Positions 1 to 5,398 of a stretch of DNA of 5,398 bases are shown one piece after another. A program made the translations under genes and the position numbers. This DNA is from Nitrososphaerota archaeon (GTDB lineage: Archaea; Thermoproteota; Nitrososphaeria; Nitrososphaerales; UBA183), in contig JAFMAU010000103.1 in NCBI GenBank assembly GCA_029784825.1, positions 1-5,398 on the forward strand, given 5' to 3'. Under the pieces are notes generated by a model. The model was not told where the DNA came from and ran no database searches. It saw only the letters and a program-made list of their open reading frames with translations. The first letter of the stretch is position 1. Every line of letters starts with the position of its first letter.

Positions 1-204
1 CACCAGAGGCTCAGACTGATAGATTTCAGCCGTGTCAACCAGAGTGATGCCTGCGTCCAGCCCTGCCTTGACCGCTCCAACCTTCTCCGCCCTCCCTCTC
101 TTCCATCCCAGAAACCCGGTCGCTATCCAAGCGGGGTCGTAGTACGTCCCCATCCCAACCACCGATACCTTCCGCCCCGTCTTCGCGAAATCTTTCAGCT
201 TCAA
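1..204 (-). CDS. Aldo/keto reductase, N-terminal part (3' end outside window)
   Basis: Members of this family are cytosolic (beta/alpha)8-barrel oxidoreductases that use NAD(P)H to reduce aldehydes and ketones. The 68 visible residues, read on the minus strand, begin MKLKDFAKTGRKVSVVGMG and match the usual AKR opening (a KxLGKTGxKVSxxGxGT-like stretch), followed by a helix and AGITLVDTAEIYQSE. In the DTAxxY motif, Asp and Tyr are the known catalytic pair of the family. The lysine and histidine of the tetrad lie beyond the window. The start is inferred: the frame is open back to the stop of the preceding gene at 253, with no ATG before residue 18. TTG at 202-204 puts the conserved opening at the N-terminus and lies about 30 nt after a TATA-like box. 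A GGAG is too close (2 nt) to serve as a normal ribosome site, which fits a leaderless message. Substrate cannot be told. Confidence 0.85.
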   Translation of the reverse strand, partial: MKLKDFAKTGRKVSVVGMGTYYDPAWIATGFLGWKRGRAEKVGAVKAGLDAGITLVDTAEIYQSEPLV

Positions 205-592: not shown

Positions 593-1570
593 CTAGCCCT
601 TTCTTTTCGCAGACTCGGCCGCCAGCACCTCCTTCGGGAGCAACCCATAGATGTCAGGGTGTTCCTTCTGCAGGGTGGAGAAAGTAGGGGGGAGGAGGCC
701 GTTCCTCCTAGCCCTCCGGACGTTGTATTCTATGAAACGCCTCATCGCACTGGTCTCGCCTGCGGCCTGGACGAATGCCCGAATCTTCTCAATGGCCACC
801 TCGTCGTCCAACTTCTTGACGTTGACGAGGTATGGTGCGAGCACCATCCAGGTCAGACGATGTCTGCCGTCGGCCACGGGGTGTGCCAGGAGGTCCTCGA
901 CGTAGAGATACCCTTTGTTTGACTTCGGCCTGGGGGAAGGTACGTATTGGATGACTTCGTCTCTGACCCCTCCCAGCTGCCTAGGGAGTGGGGCCTTCCT
1001 CAGATTCCTGACTCCGTCTGCAACCGCGGCCACGGCGCAGTCCCCGAAGAGGTCGTTGAGCAGGTTGTCTCCCATACGGACGACCCCCCGGTCGAGCTCC
1101 TGCCTCGCCAGGTTCCACTGCGGGTTCTTCGATAGCTCGTACTTCGAGACAAGCGAGAGGTATACTTCGAACGGAAGGGTGTAGCTCTCCCTCCCCCGCT
1201 CGGCCCCCGACCCCTGCAGGCCCGCTCCGAAGCACTCTGCCATGACCGTCACCTTGTTGATCGGGCCCTCCCTGACGAAGAACCCCTTCGCCCGCTCGCC
1301 TTCTTTCCTGGAGAACCTGGATGAAAGCACGGGGTCCTGACTCGCGACCAAGGCCGCGGCGAAGAAGCTCGAGAACTCGACGAGCTCCGACATGCTTGGC
1401 TCGTATTTCACCCGTCCAAGGGAGCTCAGGAGCCTCCTCCGAGTCTGCTCGATTACTTCCTTGCTCGCCAGCCCCTCTTCGACCGGGATGGACTCGAAGA
1501 ACTTCCTGGACCTCGGAGCGAACGGATACCTCAGCTCCAGGTCAGACAGGAGGGGGGTCCCGTAGGGCAA
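593..1570 (-). CDS. priL: PriL-like DNA primase large subunit lacking the Fe-S cysteines
   Basis: PriL is the non-catalytic partner of the archaeal primase PriS and helps start RNA/DNA primers at replication forks. The 325-residue product fits the PriL layout and size. RYPF near the N-terminus (14-17) is followed by helical segments (about 20-115) and a middle region with WNLARQELDRGVV (about 152-164), which resembles the PriL N-terminal domain. The C-terminal part has DGRHRLTWMVLAPYLVN (about 234-250), matching the 'R/HxxRFxLxxYLxN' helix of PriL, and LPPTFSTL...YGL (293-310), matching the canonical 'PPSCxTMxxYGLC' stretch. Canonical PriL binds a [4Fe-4S] cluster through four cysteines there. 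This protein has only Cys113 and Cys178, both outside that domain, so no such cluster is possible. That makes the C-terminus similar to crenarchaeal PriX, a cluster-free PriL relative. The TTG start is supported by an in-frame stop 6 nt upstream and by the nearby YPF motif; the next ATG is residue 60. The family call is from motif memory, not a search. Confidence 0.72.
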   Translation of the reverse strand: MPYGTPLLSDLELRYPFAPRSRKFFESIPVEEGLASKEVIEQTRRRLLSSLGRVKYEPSMSELVEFSSFFAAALVASQDPVLSSRFSRKEGERAKGFFVREGPINKVTVMAECFGAGLQGSGAERGRESYTLPFEVYLSLVSKYELSKNPQWNLARQELDRGVVRMGDNLLNDLFGDCAVAAVADGVRNLRKAPLPRQLGGVRDEVIQYVPSPRPKSNKGYLYVEDLLAHPVADGRHRLTWMVLAPYLVNVKKLDDEVAIEKIRAFVQAAGETSAMRRFIEYNVRRARRNGLLPPTFSTLQKEHPDIYGLLPKEVLAAESAKRKG

Positions 1571-1607: not shown

Positions 1608-2825
1608 TCAGCTTTCCTTTGCAGTCGACACTATCGAAAGGACGTCCCTGTCCCTGAGGACGTAGTTGGTCGGCAGGTGGAGGCCCGTCCTCACGTCGAT
1701 GGCGTAGAGCAGGCCCTTCACGAGGTCGGTGTGGACATCCTTTGCCAGGTCTTCCACCGTGGACCCGCTCGGGAGGAGGTACACGTCAGGGAGTATCCTG
1801 CCATTCTTGTCGGAGAGCTTCTGCGGGTCGTGGACCGGGTACACCGCGTTCTCCTTCAGGAGCTTGAATATCACCGAGTTGAGCGCGAACTGCACGCCTG
1901 TCCTCAGGTACTCTCCGAAGACCTTCCGTCTGATGTAGGCGAGGGCGTTCCTCTGCGAGTCGTTGAGGTCCTGGGGCTTCAGGATGTCGAACCTCTCCTC
2001 CCCTGGCACGTACTTGATCAGCCCCTTCGACTCGGCGCGCCTCAGCGTCAGCTCGGCCTCGCCGCTGGTGGGGACCACTATCAGACCCTTGTACTTCTCC
2101 CGGATCCTCTTGAAGTTCTCGGCGGCGTAGGGGAGGTCCATCTTGTTCGCTATCAGCAGCGTCGGCTTGGAGTACTCCCTAAGCGACCAGCAGAAGTTCT
2201 GCGCCTCCTTCTCGTTCCAGGAGTCGAACGCCTTGTCCTCCAGCATGGCGTCCTTCATGGCAAGGATCACATGCTCCTTGCGGACGCCGATCCCCTGCAT
2301 CACCTCTTCCACGGCTGCGGGGATCCCATAGCCAGGGGTCTTCGACAGCTTCGATATTTTCGGTAGGTTCTGGGTGAAGAGTTTCGTATACCAGAGGACC
2401 AACTCCAGCTCCACGTCCGCGAAGTCTGCCATCGGATCGCCTGTCCCTGGCTCCGAGATCTTGCCGTCCTTGTCCACGCTACCGGAGGCGTCGACCACGT
2501 GCAGGAGGGCGTCGGACTGGGCGGCGACGCTCAGGAACTGGTTGCCGAGCCCCTTGCCCATCCACGCTCCCTTGATCAGGCCCGGTAGGTCGGTCACCTC
2601 GACCGGGATGAACCTCCAGCCGTCTTCACACTTCGAGTTGATCGGGGTGTCCTGGACCCCGAACTCCTTGTGGACGCACAGGGTGACCACGCTGGCCACC
2701 CCCATCTCCGGCGACTTCGTAGTGAAGGGATAGTTCGACACCTCCCCTGAAAGCAGCGTCATCGAGTTGAACAGCGTCGTCTTCCCCGCGTTGGTCTTGC
2801 CGATGAGCCCAATTCTGATGGTCAA
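1608..2825 (-). CDS. ychF: YchF/OLA1-family GTP-binding protein with C-terminal TGS domain
   Basis: This is a cytosolic P-loop NTPase of the OBG/YchF class, proteins that associate with ribosomes or translation. Visible motifs: P-loop GKTNAGKT (residues 9-16), switch I around NYPFTT (31-36), G3 DLPGL (79-83) followed by KGLGNQFL (91-98), the family's LLHVVDASG (107-115), G4 NKMD (227-230) and G5-like VPTSGEAE (251-258). A C-terminal TGS domain covers about 346-403 (LPDVYLLPSGSTVEDLAKDV region). Length (405 aa) fits the archaeal members, such as the structurally characterised Pyrococcus YchF-related protein. Canonical YchF/OLA1 has NxxE at G4 and prefers ATP; the intact NKxD here predicts GTP preference. 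The start is TTG at 2823-2825, which places the P-loop strand at once at the N-terminus as in the family. The stop codon lies 37 nt before the primase start, so the two genes may share a transcript. Confidence 0.92.
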   Translation of the reverse strand: MTIRIGLIGKTNAGKTTLFNSMTLLSGEVSNYPFTTKSPEMGVASVVTLCVHKEFGVQDTPINSKCEDGWRFIPVEVTDLPGLIKGAWMGKGLGNQFLSVAAQSDALLHVVDASGSVDKDGKISEPGTGDPMADFADVELELVLWYTKLFTQNLPKISKLSKTPGYGIPAAVEEVMQGIGVRKEHVILAMKDAMLEDKAFDSWNEKEAQNFCWSLREYSKPTLLIANKMDLPYAAENFKRIREKYKGLIVVPTSGEAELTLRRAESKGLIKYVPGEERFDILKPQDLNDSQRNALAYIRRKVFGEYLRTGVQFALNSVIFKLLKENAVYPVHDPQKLSDKNGRILPDVYLLPSGSTVEDLAKDVHTDLVKGLLYAIDVRTGLHLPTNYVLRDRDVLSIVSTAKES

Positions 2826-3469: not shown

Positions 3470-4510
3470 TTGAAGATTGAGACGAAGACCGCCGCATACG
3501 GGCTTGCGGGACTGGCGGTAGCCGGCGCCGTGATCTTCTCGGGGTCGGCTCTGGGGCTCCTGAACGTGCAGGCGTCCGGCCTGCTCTCCGTGCTGCTTAC
3601 CGACCCGCCCACGGTCCCGACCGGTGTGACCGCCATCTACATCACTTACACTGACGTCGCTGTCCACGCCGCCGGGTTCGGCGACTCCGGCTGGGTGTCC
3701 GTGGCTGGCCACGGGACCATTGAAACGATGAGCCTGATCAACCTCAGCCAGACGATTTCAAGCGGGGCCATACCGGCTCTCGACTACAACCAGGTTCGGT
3801 TCACCATCTCCAACGCTTCGGTCGGGTACATGGGGAAGAACTACACGGCGGCCGTGGGTTCCGGCATGATCGAAGTCCCTATCGTCGGCGGGCTGAAGGT
3901 CAACTCATCTAGCCCTGCCGCCACGCTCGTCGACATCCAGCCTACGGTGGCCAACCTCGGGGGCCAGGCCCGGCCTTCGTTCACGATAGCGGCTGGAGCC
4001 AGGGCGCTCCAGGTGCCTTCGGCGCAGGTAGACCAGTCCACGAAGACCATGGGTCACAGAGAGTCGCTCGAAGGGCACAGCTGGTACAACTCCTTCAAGT
4101 CAACGGGCTCGACGAACCTGACCATGTCGGGGCTGACGCTTTCCGCCAACTCCTTCTCTTTCTTCGCAACGAACAGCGGGACCGACCCGCTTGTGGTGCG
4201 CACGATTGTGATCGCCCCAAGCCAGAAGGGGCAAGGCGAAGAGTCGGCCCTTGGCTCTGTGGTCAACGGAGCCGCGTTCGCAGTCCAGCCTGACGGGTCA
4301 CTGACCCTCCTGACGGGGAATCCGGGTCAAGCCGAGGCGCTCTTGGATGGGTCAGGATACTCCATCGCTCCAGGGTCAGCACAGCAGTTCAGCTACTCGG
4401 GCGCCATAGCGAACATCTTCGGGAACAGGGGCATAACCGCGGGGACCAGCTACTATGTCATCGTAATGGGCCAGGGCACCCTCGGCGTCGAGACGGTACA
4501 GGCGTCCTAG
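3470..4510 (+). CDS. Exported DUF4382-domain surface protein
   Basis: A predicted cell-surface or secreted protein of 346 residues, of unknown molecular role. Residues 1-7 carry Lys (MKIETKT), followed by a hydrophobic segment (about 8-32), a Sec signal peptide or uncleaved N-terminal anchor; VQAS at 33-36 could be a cleavage site. The DUF4382 signature follows (about 38-160): LLSVLLTDPPT, VTAIYITYTDVAVHAAG, GWVSVAG, LDYNQVRFTISNASVGY, and the EVPIVGGLKV and LVDIQP strands. The second half (about 215-346) is Ser/Thr/Gly-rich with beta-type patterns (LTLSANSFSFFATNSGTDPL) and no C-terminal membrane segment. Five N-glycosylation sequons (N91, N115, N124, N145, N216) fit an archaeal exterior protein. 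There is no cysteine. The TTG start is required to include the signal segment, since the first ATG is residue 87. It is the only plus-strand gene, divergent from a membrane winged-helix gene, and its stop overlaps that of aRF1. Confidence 0.85.
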   Translation: MKIETKTAAYGLAGLAVAGAVIFSGSALGLLNVQASGLLSVLLTDPPTVPTGVTAIYITYTDVAVHAAGFGDSGWVSVAGHGTIETMSLINLSQTISSGAIPALDYNQVRFTISNASVGYMGKNYTAAVGSGMIEVPIVGGLKVNSSSPAATLVDIQPTVANLGGQARPSFTIAAGARALQVPSAQVDQSTKTMGHRESLEGHSWYNSFKSTGSTNLTMSGLTLSANSFSFFATNSGTDPLVVRTIVIAPSQKGQGEESALGSVVNGAAFAVQPDGSLTLLTGNPGQAEALLDGSGYSIAPGSAQQFSYSGAIANIFGNRGITAGTSYYVIVMGQGTLGVETVQAS

Positions 4511-5398
4511 CTTCTGTAGCGCAGCAGGGCGGCGACCCCGCCGAAGGTCTTGAACATGCTCCCTTCTTCGGTCCCTGACGATATCACTTCGACCTTCGAT
4601 CCACCCTGGAACGCCATCTCCTCCAGGACGTCCACGATGTCGGTCTCCACGAAGCCGTAGTCGGTCGCTCCGCAGCTGTCGCAGGGCGAGGCCGCCATCT
4701 CCTGCCTGTCCTGCATCTTCTTCGACGTCGCGACCGTGTGCGACTTCACCGTGCCACACTTCTTGCAGGTCGCTTCGAGCCTGACCATGTCGAGGTCGTC
4801 GGAGACGAGGACCACTTCGGTGCTCGCCTTTTGCAGCGAGTCAATCACCCTGGGGAGGCCGTACACCGCCAGTCCCCCCTGTCTGTTGACTTCGCCCAGG
4901 AACTTCTGGACCAGGCGCTTTTCCTCCACGAGCCTGACGTCCTTCAGGATGTCCCCTGCCTTCTCCACGAGCTCCCTGACCCCCTCCCTGCCAGAATAGC
5001 CGAGGTCGAGGACAGCGACTACCTTCTTCTGGAGCTCGTAGTGGAGGTACCCTCCCTTGAGGAATTCGTCCTTGGTGGGGCCAGGGCCTCCGACGATAAG
5101 CCCTGTGATCTTGTTGCTGTCGATGAACGTCCTCGTGGCGTGCTCGCCCACCCTGTTGAAGAAGTAGGTCAGCTCCATCTCCCTGCCGCGCTCGTAGCGC
5201 CTCGCCGACTGGCCCCCCTTCCTCGTCTTGCCTGAAATCCCGGAGGTCATGATGTCTGCTATCTCCAGGCTCCCTCCGCTCAGGATCCCCAGGCCAACAT
5301 CGCTCGAGTCTATGGCCAGGAGCCCGAAGACCTTCTCGTCCTTGAGCATGTCCCTCAGCCACTCGACATGGAAATGGTCGTCGCACTGGTACAGATAC
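4507..5398 (-). CDS. prf1: Peptide chain release factor aRF1 (N-terminal domain outside window)
   Basis: aRF1 reads all three stop codons in the ribosomal A site and triggers hydrolysis of peptidyl-tRNA; it acts with aEF1A and ABCE1. The visible 296 residues lack roughly the first 100-120 (the stop-reading domain with NIKS/TASNIKS). At the window edge is YQCDDHF (5391-5371), the YxCxxxF motif that helps stop-codon recognition. The middle domain holds the catalytic loop GKTRKGGQSARRYER, with GGQ at 5217-5209. The C-terminal domain carries two CxxC pairs, CKKC and CDSC (between 4767 and 4672), a likely zinc-binding ribbon as in many archaeal aRF1 proteins. It then ends with EEGSMFKTFGGVAALLRYRS, the typical archaeal terminus. 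All catalytic features seen are intact. The reading frame stays open to the window edge, so the ATG at 5347-5349 is internal and not the start. The TAG stop overlaps the stop of the convergent DUF4382 gene. Confidence 0.97.
   Translation of the reverse strand, partial: YLYQCDDHFHVEWLRDMLKDEKVFGLLAIDSSDVGLGILSGGSLEIADIMTSGISGKTRKGGQSARRYERGREMELTYFFNRVGEHATRTFIDSNKITGLIVGGPGPTKDEFLKGGYLHYELQKKVVAVLDLGYSGREGVRELVEKAGDILKDVRLVEEKRLVQKFLGEVNRQGGLAVYGLPRVIDSLQKASTEVVLVSDDLDMVRLEATCKKCGTVKSHTVATSKKMQDRQEMAASPCDSCGATDYGFVETDIVDVLEEMAFQGGSKVEVISSGTEEGSMFKTFGGVAALLRYRS

Follow-up and report, generated by a model that had tools for sequence, protein, structure and literature searches.

A natural PriL-PriX fusion in Nitrososphaerales and other archaeal genomes in which no iron-sulphur PriL was found

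The role of the iron-sulphur (Fe-S) cluster of primase, whether in structure, in initiation or in redox-controlled handover, has been disputed for years. The closest described systems come from the Sulfolobales, in which PriX forms a third subunit of its own, accompanying an Fe-S PriL (PDB 4WYH, 5OF3). In the PriSLX complex of Saccharolobus solfataricus, the initiating nucleotide is reported to be bound at its triphosphate by residues D70, R72 and R74 of PriX; alanine mutants of these residues were inactive on poly(dT), and in a replication assay they gave lower DNA synthesis (PMC5700102). An engineered Chimera of PriL residues 1-211 and PriX residues 42-154 shows priming like that of the wild type when combined with PriS, according to the same source (PMC5700102), and in the S. 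islandicus strain CHI-deltaX, in which the same fusion replaces both priL and priX, growth at 75 C is reported to equal that of the parent, with greater sensitivity to MMS, NQO and gamma radiation (PMC12019639). In a review, PriX is proposed to grip the 5' end of the primer as a caliper (PMC6393858), and a 2022 survey describes the PriX family as specific to the Sulfolobales (PMC9258230). Here, we describe a natural protein of the Chimera layout, encoded by a gene that we name priLX, in a 5,398-nucleotide stretch of DNA from a Nitrososphaerota archaeon of the order Nitrososphaerales (contig JAFMAU010000103.1; hereafter the window).

The window protein is a PriL N-terminal domain (approximately residues 9-211) joined to a PriX domain (approximately residues 220-318), an assignment on which profiles, profile-profile alignment and predicted structure all concur. 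Its open reading frame (ORF 593-1570, reverse strand) encodes 325 amino acids and a stop from a TTG start at 1570, upstream of which the frame remains open for only two codons (596-1576), and a database search returned 528 homologues, indicating that it is not a chance ORF. We confirmed both this ORF and the presence of only two cysteines, Cys113 and Cys178, neither of them in the C-terminal domain, as the first-pass annotation of the window had stated. The motifs RYPF (residues 14-17), DGRHRLTWMVLAPYLVN (234-250), PPTFSTL (294-300) and YGL (308-310) were located in the protein. The N-terminal domain was recognised as that of PriL by profile and by predicted structure. The C-terminal domain, which had been suspected of being PriX-like, scored 66.6 bits against the PriX model NF033412 (cut-off 50) and 55.8 bits against PF18689 (cut-off 25), matched stand-alone PriX with a probability of 99.5% in an hhalign profile-profile alignment, and adopts the PriX fold in the predicted structure, the kind of check that had been proposed for it. 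The same hhalign procedure gave a probability of 0.04% against the thaumarchaeal PriL Fe-S domain, and the protein did not match PF04104 at E 1, so that, unlike canonical archaeal PriL, it has no four-cysteine C-terminal Fe-S domain.

The best match by sequence in the PDB is the Sulfolobus PriL-PriX Chimera itself (PDB 5OFN). Both proteins consist of a PriL N-terminal domain followed by PriX without an Fe-S domain, with the junction at about the same place, and 23 of 98 residues are identical in the PriX part; the Chimera, however, is man-made, whereas the window's type is natural and clade-wide, in genomes in which no Fe-S PriL was found. In contrast to the stand-alone PriX of the Sulfolobales, the PriX domain of the window protein is fused to a PriL N-terminal domain. 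The counterparts of PriX D70/R72/R74 in the window protein are D234/R236/R238, which are invariant, as is C113, in all 120 relatives compared (the best 120 of the 528 homologues, all at least 76% identical, on which every count out of 120 given here is based). These counterparts were likewise kept in 26/26 proteins of a fusion group named Conexivisphaerales in the database (28 proteins, with two AEP-PriX proteins excluded), and in all 12 full fusions among 27 proteins of a third, Sulfolobales form. The lack of cysteines is shared by related archaea: none of the 120 relatives has a cysteine from residue 212 onward; the PriX domain contains zero or one cysteine in the 26 Conexivisphaerales-group proteins and two or three in the 12 Sulfolobales-form fusions, and four are reached in none of the 120, 26 or 12 proteins. 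The first-pass view of a PriL-type subunit devoid of Fe-S cysteines thus stands.

We propose, with a probability of about 0.9, that the priLX product serves the replicative primase as its non-catalytic subunit for initiation and regulation, in which the PriX domain replaces the PriL Fe-S domain and which works with PriS free of a cluster. The same work is expected of the window protein as of its Sulfolobus counterparts because its layout and key residues match those of the Chimera and PriX, and the replicative role, PriS docking, nucleotide binding, initiation and primer counting are accordingly ascribed to it by analogy with the Sulfolobus work. Docking on PriS would fall to the PriL N-terminal domain, and R236 and R238, together with a metal on D234, would grip the triphosphate of the first nucleotide. 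The PriX domain would then deliver this nucleotide to the PriS active site for synthesis of the first dinucleotide, and would retain the 5' end so that primer length could be measured. No Fe-S cluster would take part in any of these steps, and in this respect the protein would resemble the engineered PriL(1-211)-PriX(42-154) Chimera.

We searched whole genomes for PF04104, the family that includes the PriL Fe-S domain, and found it in none of 36 related fusion genomes. These are the genomes of seven named metagenome-assembled contigs that carry close relatives of the window protein (labelled Thaumarchaeota, Nitrososphaerales or 'archaeon'; 0/7), 14 fusion genomes within a sample of 250 genomes of the class for which 80% completeness was asked (0/14, two of them also among the seven), and another 17 fusion genomes of the order (0/17). 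The search matched 217 of the 250 class genomes and 4 of 14 control genomes, all four of which are archaea, and a Fisher test of fusion against PF04104 in the class sample gave p 3e-14, a value that ignores kinship. Among the 33 class genomes without PF04104, 13 were identified by subtraction, including the fusion genomes G003, G196, G207 and G236. The search of further order genomes also took in G005 and G006, which were repeats, together with two genomes that do carry PF04104, G574 and G589, both with PriX proteins of the AEP type. Within the fusion set, G611 and G612 gave identical scores and are possibly near-copies, priLX in G196 is without the first third of the gene, and priLX in G005 is apparently split between two contigs.

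Among 31 fusion genomes searched for PriS (PF01896), 28 contained it (7/7, 12/12 and 9/12), and the DxD and SGxxGxH residues do not vary among 30 aligned PriS sequences (17 from the window's clade, two of which are from genomes without a fusion found; four from Conexivisphaerales; and nine others). We considered whether genome incompleteness might account for the missing PriL. Of the 236 fusion-less class genomes, 19 are also without PF04104, and PriS was found in five of these 19 (G036, G085, G181, G195 and G213), compared with 14/14 fusion genomes of the same sample; incompleteness therefore fits most of the 19 fusion-less genomes, and was set aside for the fusion genomes. By EF-2, G195 and G213 fall inside the fusion clade, yet no fusion was found in either.

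Several observations weigh against a cluster-free replicative subunit acting with PriS. The search for a second PriL and for PriS in the same genome, as envisaged in the first-pass annotation, was carried out in relatives; for the window organism itself we infer the absence of a second PriL from those genomes. The completeness filter asked for was 80% or 70%, and the individual values were not displayed. A PriS match is absent from three fusion genomes (G600, G611 and G613), and stretches of 9-10 kb around priS contained no PriL match in 5/5 fusion genomes. Two supporting residues of the PriX site, Y103 and D140, correspond to V267 and H304 in an ungapped alignment, although an invariant Asp306 lies two residues past H304, the D140 position. 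Finally, Cys113 of the PriL N-terminal domain is invariant in 120/120 relatives, with no evident role as a cluster ligand.

As an alternative, an ordinary PriL Fe-S C-terminal domain might have eroded in place, losing its four cysteines and drifting to a PriX-like form. The first-pass annotation leaned this way, suggesting that PriL's own C-terminus had become PriX-like and that the threonine of PPTF stood at the position of a PriL cysteine. PriX has been presented as a homologue of the PriL C-terminal domain that has diverged (PMC12019639), and stand-alone PriX likewise fails against PriL Fe-S domains (0.08%), so that, despite the 0.04% obtained for the window protein, the two domains may share a distant common origin. 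Against erosion, the domain matches PriX at 99.5%, PriX trees (built without the PriL C-terminal domain) place it near AEP-linked and viral PriX, and priLX lies away from the priS locus in the five fusion genomes examined, whereas priS stood beside priL in 30/30 canonical loci examined (of the 217 genomes with a PF04104 match). We consider in-place erosion very unlikely. The suggestion that PriL's own C-terminus had been converted was not supported, nor was the reading of PPTF, as the 0.04% alignment provides no residue equivalence; a cysteine-to-threonine loss in the PriL C-terminal domain was set aside, given that there is no profile match to the PriL Fe-S domain. As far as the profiles used show, the cysteine positions are not part of this domain family.

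A second alternative, which we regard as very improbable, is that priLX is an accessory or mobile-element paralogue, with the true Fe-S PriL encoded elsewhere in the genome. In its favour, related PriX domains are found in numerous copies elsewhere in the class (up to 13 matches in one genome, G622), fused to AEP or alone in viral contigs, and one genome, G610, carries two PriL-PriX fusions. Elsewhere in the class, and in some Crenarchaeota, the AEP domain is PriS-like and precedes the PriX domain. Nonetheless, among 45 other PriX frames of more than 200 amino acids, 44 matched an AEP profile (built from 14 of the 45) and none matched the PriL N-terminal domain profile; the remaining frame, L197, matched neither, and one of the 45, L027, comes from a genome that also bears a fusion. 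Two further PriX frames from G589 matched neither profile, but overlap with PF01896 matches. A paralogue also sits poorly with the stable neighbours of priLX, a YchF-type GTPase gene next to it in 8/9 relatives examined and aRF1 nearby in 8/9 (the ninth contig ends first), and with the absence of PF04104 from all fusion genomes searched, most of which have PriS; it was set aside on the genome searches. The idea that the complex keeps an Fe-S cluster through Cys113, Cys178 or PriS ligands draws on the invariance of Cys113 and on a cysteine-rich insert in the PriS of the fusion clade, CKRGHDLWYCEKC, but is hardly credible, as the protein has only two cysteines, Cys178 is replaced by S or A in 31/120 relatives, and the insert (CxxxH...CxxC), which we take to resemble a zinc site, is also present in 5/8 PriS rows from canonical genomes.

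Returning to the replacement of the Fe-S domain by PriX, we investigated the origins of the fusion. The window's type and the Conexivisphaerales fusions formed one clade in the tree of PriX domains (support 99/97), and they also grouped together in the N-terminal domain tree (97/83, with long branches); addition of divergent and viral members to the PriX tree brought support for the joint clade down to 92/53. These trees are limited by alignments of about 100 to 220 columns. In the best EF-2 tree the two fusion groups are non-sister, and a joint clade was not rejected (p-AU 0.196). The third fusion, L201, is in genome G564 and its relatives are named Sulfolobales archaeon. It contains a PriL N-terminal domain (E 3.9e-28 to the canonical profile), its PriX domain groups among crenarchaeal PriX, and the sole PF04104 match in G564 (E 1.5e-4) falls within the fusion, before the PriX domain; PriS is present in this genome. 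A single clade for all three fusion groups was rejected (p-AU 0.0021), and on the trees the PriL-PriX layout is therefore taken to have arisen at least twice, independently in the Sulfolobales lineage, the second origin being known from one genome and a dozen database proteins. In G610, the two fusions (L242 and L243) differ from one another, one belonging to a divergent subgroup shared with G605, G601 and G598.

We additionally identified stand-alone PriX-like frames of 133-141 amino acids in three IMG/VR viral contigs (L223:1440-1862, L224:2063-2485 and L225:2314-2712), of which L223 and L224 are near-identical in the PriX region. The viral PriX lies directly ahead of a large gene, which in the two contigs scanned (L224 and L225) encodes a family B DNA polymerase, and in the same two contigs the preceding gene is KaiC-like (under cut-off) or Rad51-like. 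In the viral and AEP-fused proteins the PriX domain is related to that of the window protein, and what precedes it is either a PriS-like domain or nothing, rather than a PriL N-terminal domain. The tree placed viral PriX closest to the fusions of the nitrososphaerial and Conexivisphaerales groups (98/83, 99 columns), a position that is compatible with a mobile source of the PriX domain without demonstrating one; the viral stand-alone PriX may plug into host PriS. A fuller scenario, which we put forward tentatively as somewhat less probable than its opposite, is that the Fe-S domain of the replicative primase was discarded at least twice, in the ancestor of the nitrososphaerial group and Conexivisphaerales and in the Sulfolobales lineage, by PriX joining the PriL N-terminus, with the first PriX coming from a virus or mobile element and the priL-priS neighbourhood being broken meanwhile. 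If true, priming, counting and handover would proceed without the primase Fe-S cluster, and its redox switching would be unneeded for these steps. As separate observations, the AEP-PriX fusions of class genomes (L040-L054, L204-L214 and L252-L270) are perhaps mobile-element primases, G036 (L159, L061) has PriS and AEP-PriX but yielded no Fe-S PriL and no PriL-PriX fusion, and the viral family B polymerase at L224:2464-6597 has intein-splicing and LAGLIDADG matches, the L223 frame being 316 amino acids shorter.

In our data the PriX domain is more widespread than the Sulfolobales, and some of the fusion proteins already carry the NCBI name 'DNA primase noncatalytic subunit PriX'. The component domains were already known, and the natural fusion in place of an Fe-S PriL appears to be the new part; we found no account of it in the open-access library searched, a scope that does not take in the original PriX description. 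The abstract of that 2015 discovery paper by Liu reportedly mentions phylogenomics of PriX, and part of the present finding may already be there. The dispensability of the cluster has so far been based on an engineered chimera, built to show that a primer can be started in its absence, and natural lineages appear to live with the same layout. Were a redox role of the cluster indispensable, such lineages should not exist, or would need a substitute that could be found. The natural fusion also predicts a cost in repair, given the poorer survival of the S. islandicus chimera strain after DNA damage relative to the parent strain (PMC12019639).

Coordinates of priLX, its domains and its neighbours in the window are listed below.

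Table 1. Features of the priLX locus, in window coordinates.
Feature	Position	Strand	Remarks
priLX (PriL-NTD::PriX fusion gene; NTD, N-terminal domain)	593..1570	-	325 amino acids, TTG start; profiles, alignments, predicted structure
PriL N-terminal domain, residues 9-211	938..1546	-	
PriX domain, residues 220-318, cysteine-free	617..913	-	
DGRHR, residues 234-238, counterpart of the PriX D70-R72-R74 initiating-nucleotide site	857..871	-	Alignment; 120/120 invariant; mutational role from PMC5700102
YchF-type GTPase (NF007171)	1608..2825	-	Upstream of priLX, co-directional
aRF1 peptide chain release factor (TIGR03676)	4507..5397	-	5' end beyond window
Start of gene downstream of priLX	1..204	-	Similar gene after priLX in 8/9 relatives

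The start of priLX lies 37 bases behind the YchF-type GTPase gene, and no PriS model was matched among the scanned window genes; in the genomes examined, the fusion is not beside priS, in contrast to canonical archaeal priL. The downstream gene presumably encodes an aldo/keto reductase, judging from its sequence. In the three Conexivisphaerales loci examined, a reductase-like gene is located 5' of priLX, and in the window's type 3' of it, and because the sides differ between the two fusion groups, this neighbour was not used as proof of one origin. The window additionally contains a gene for a DUF4382 protein on the forward strand and a gene for a 161-amino-acid protein with HTH matches under their cut-offs.
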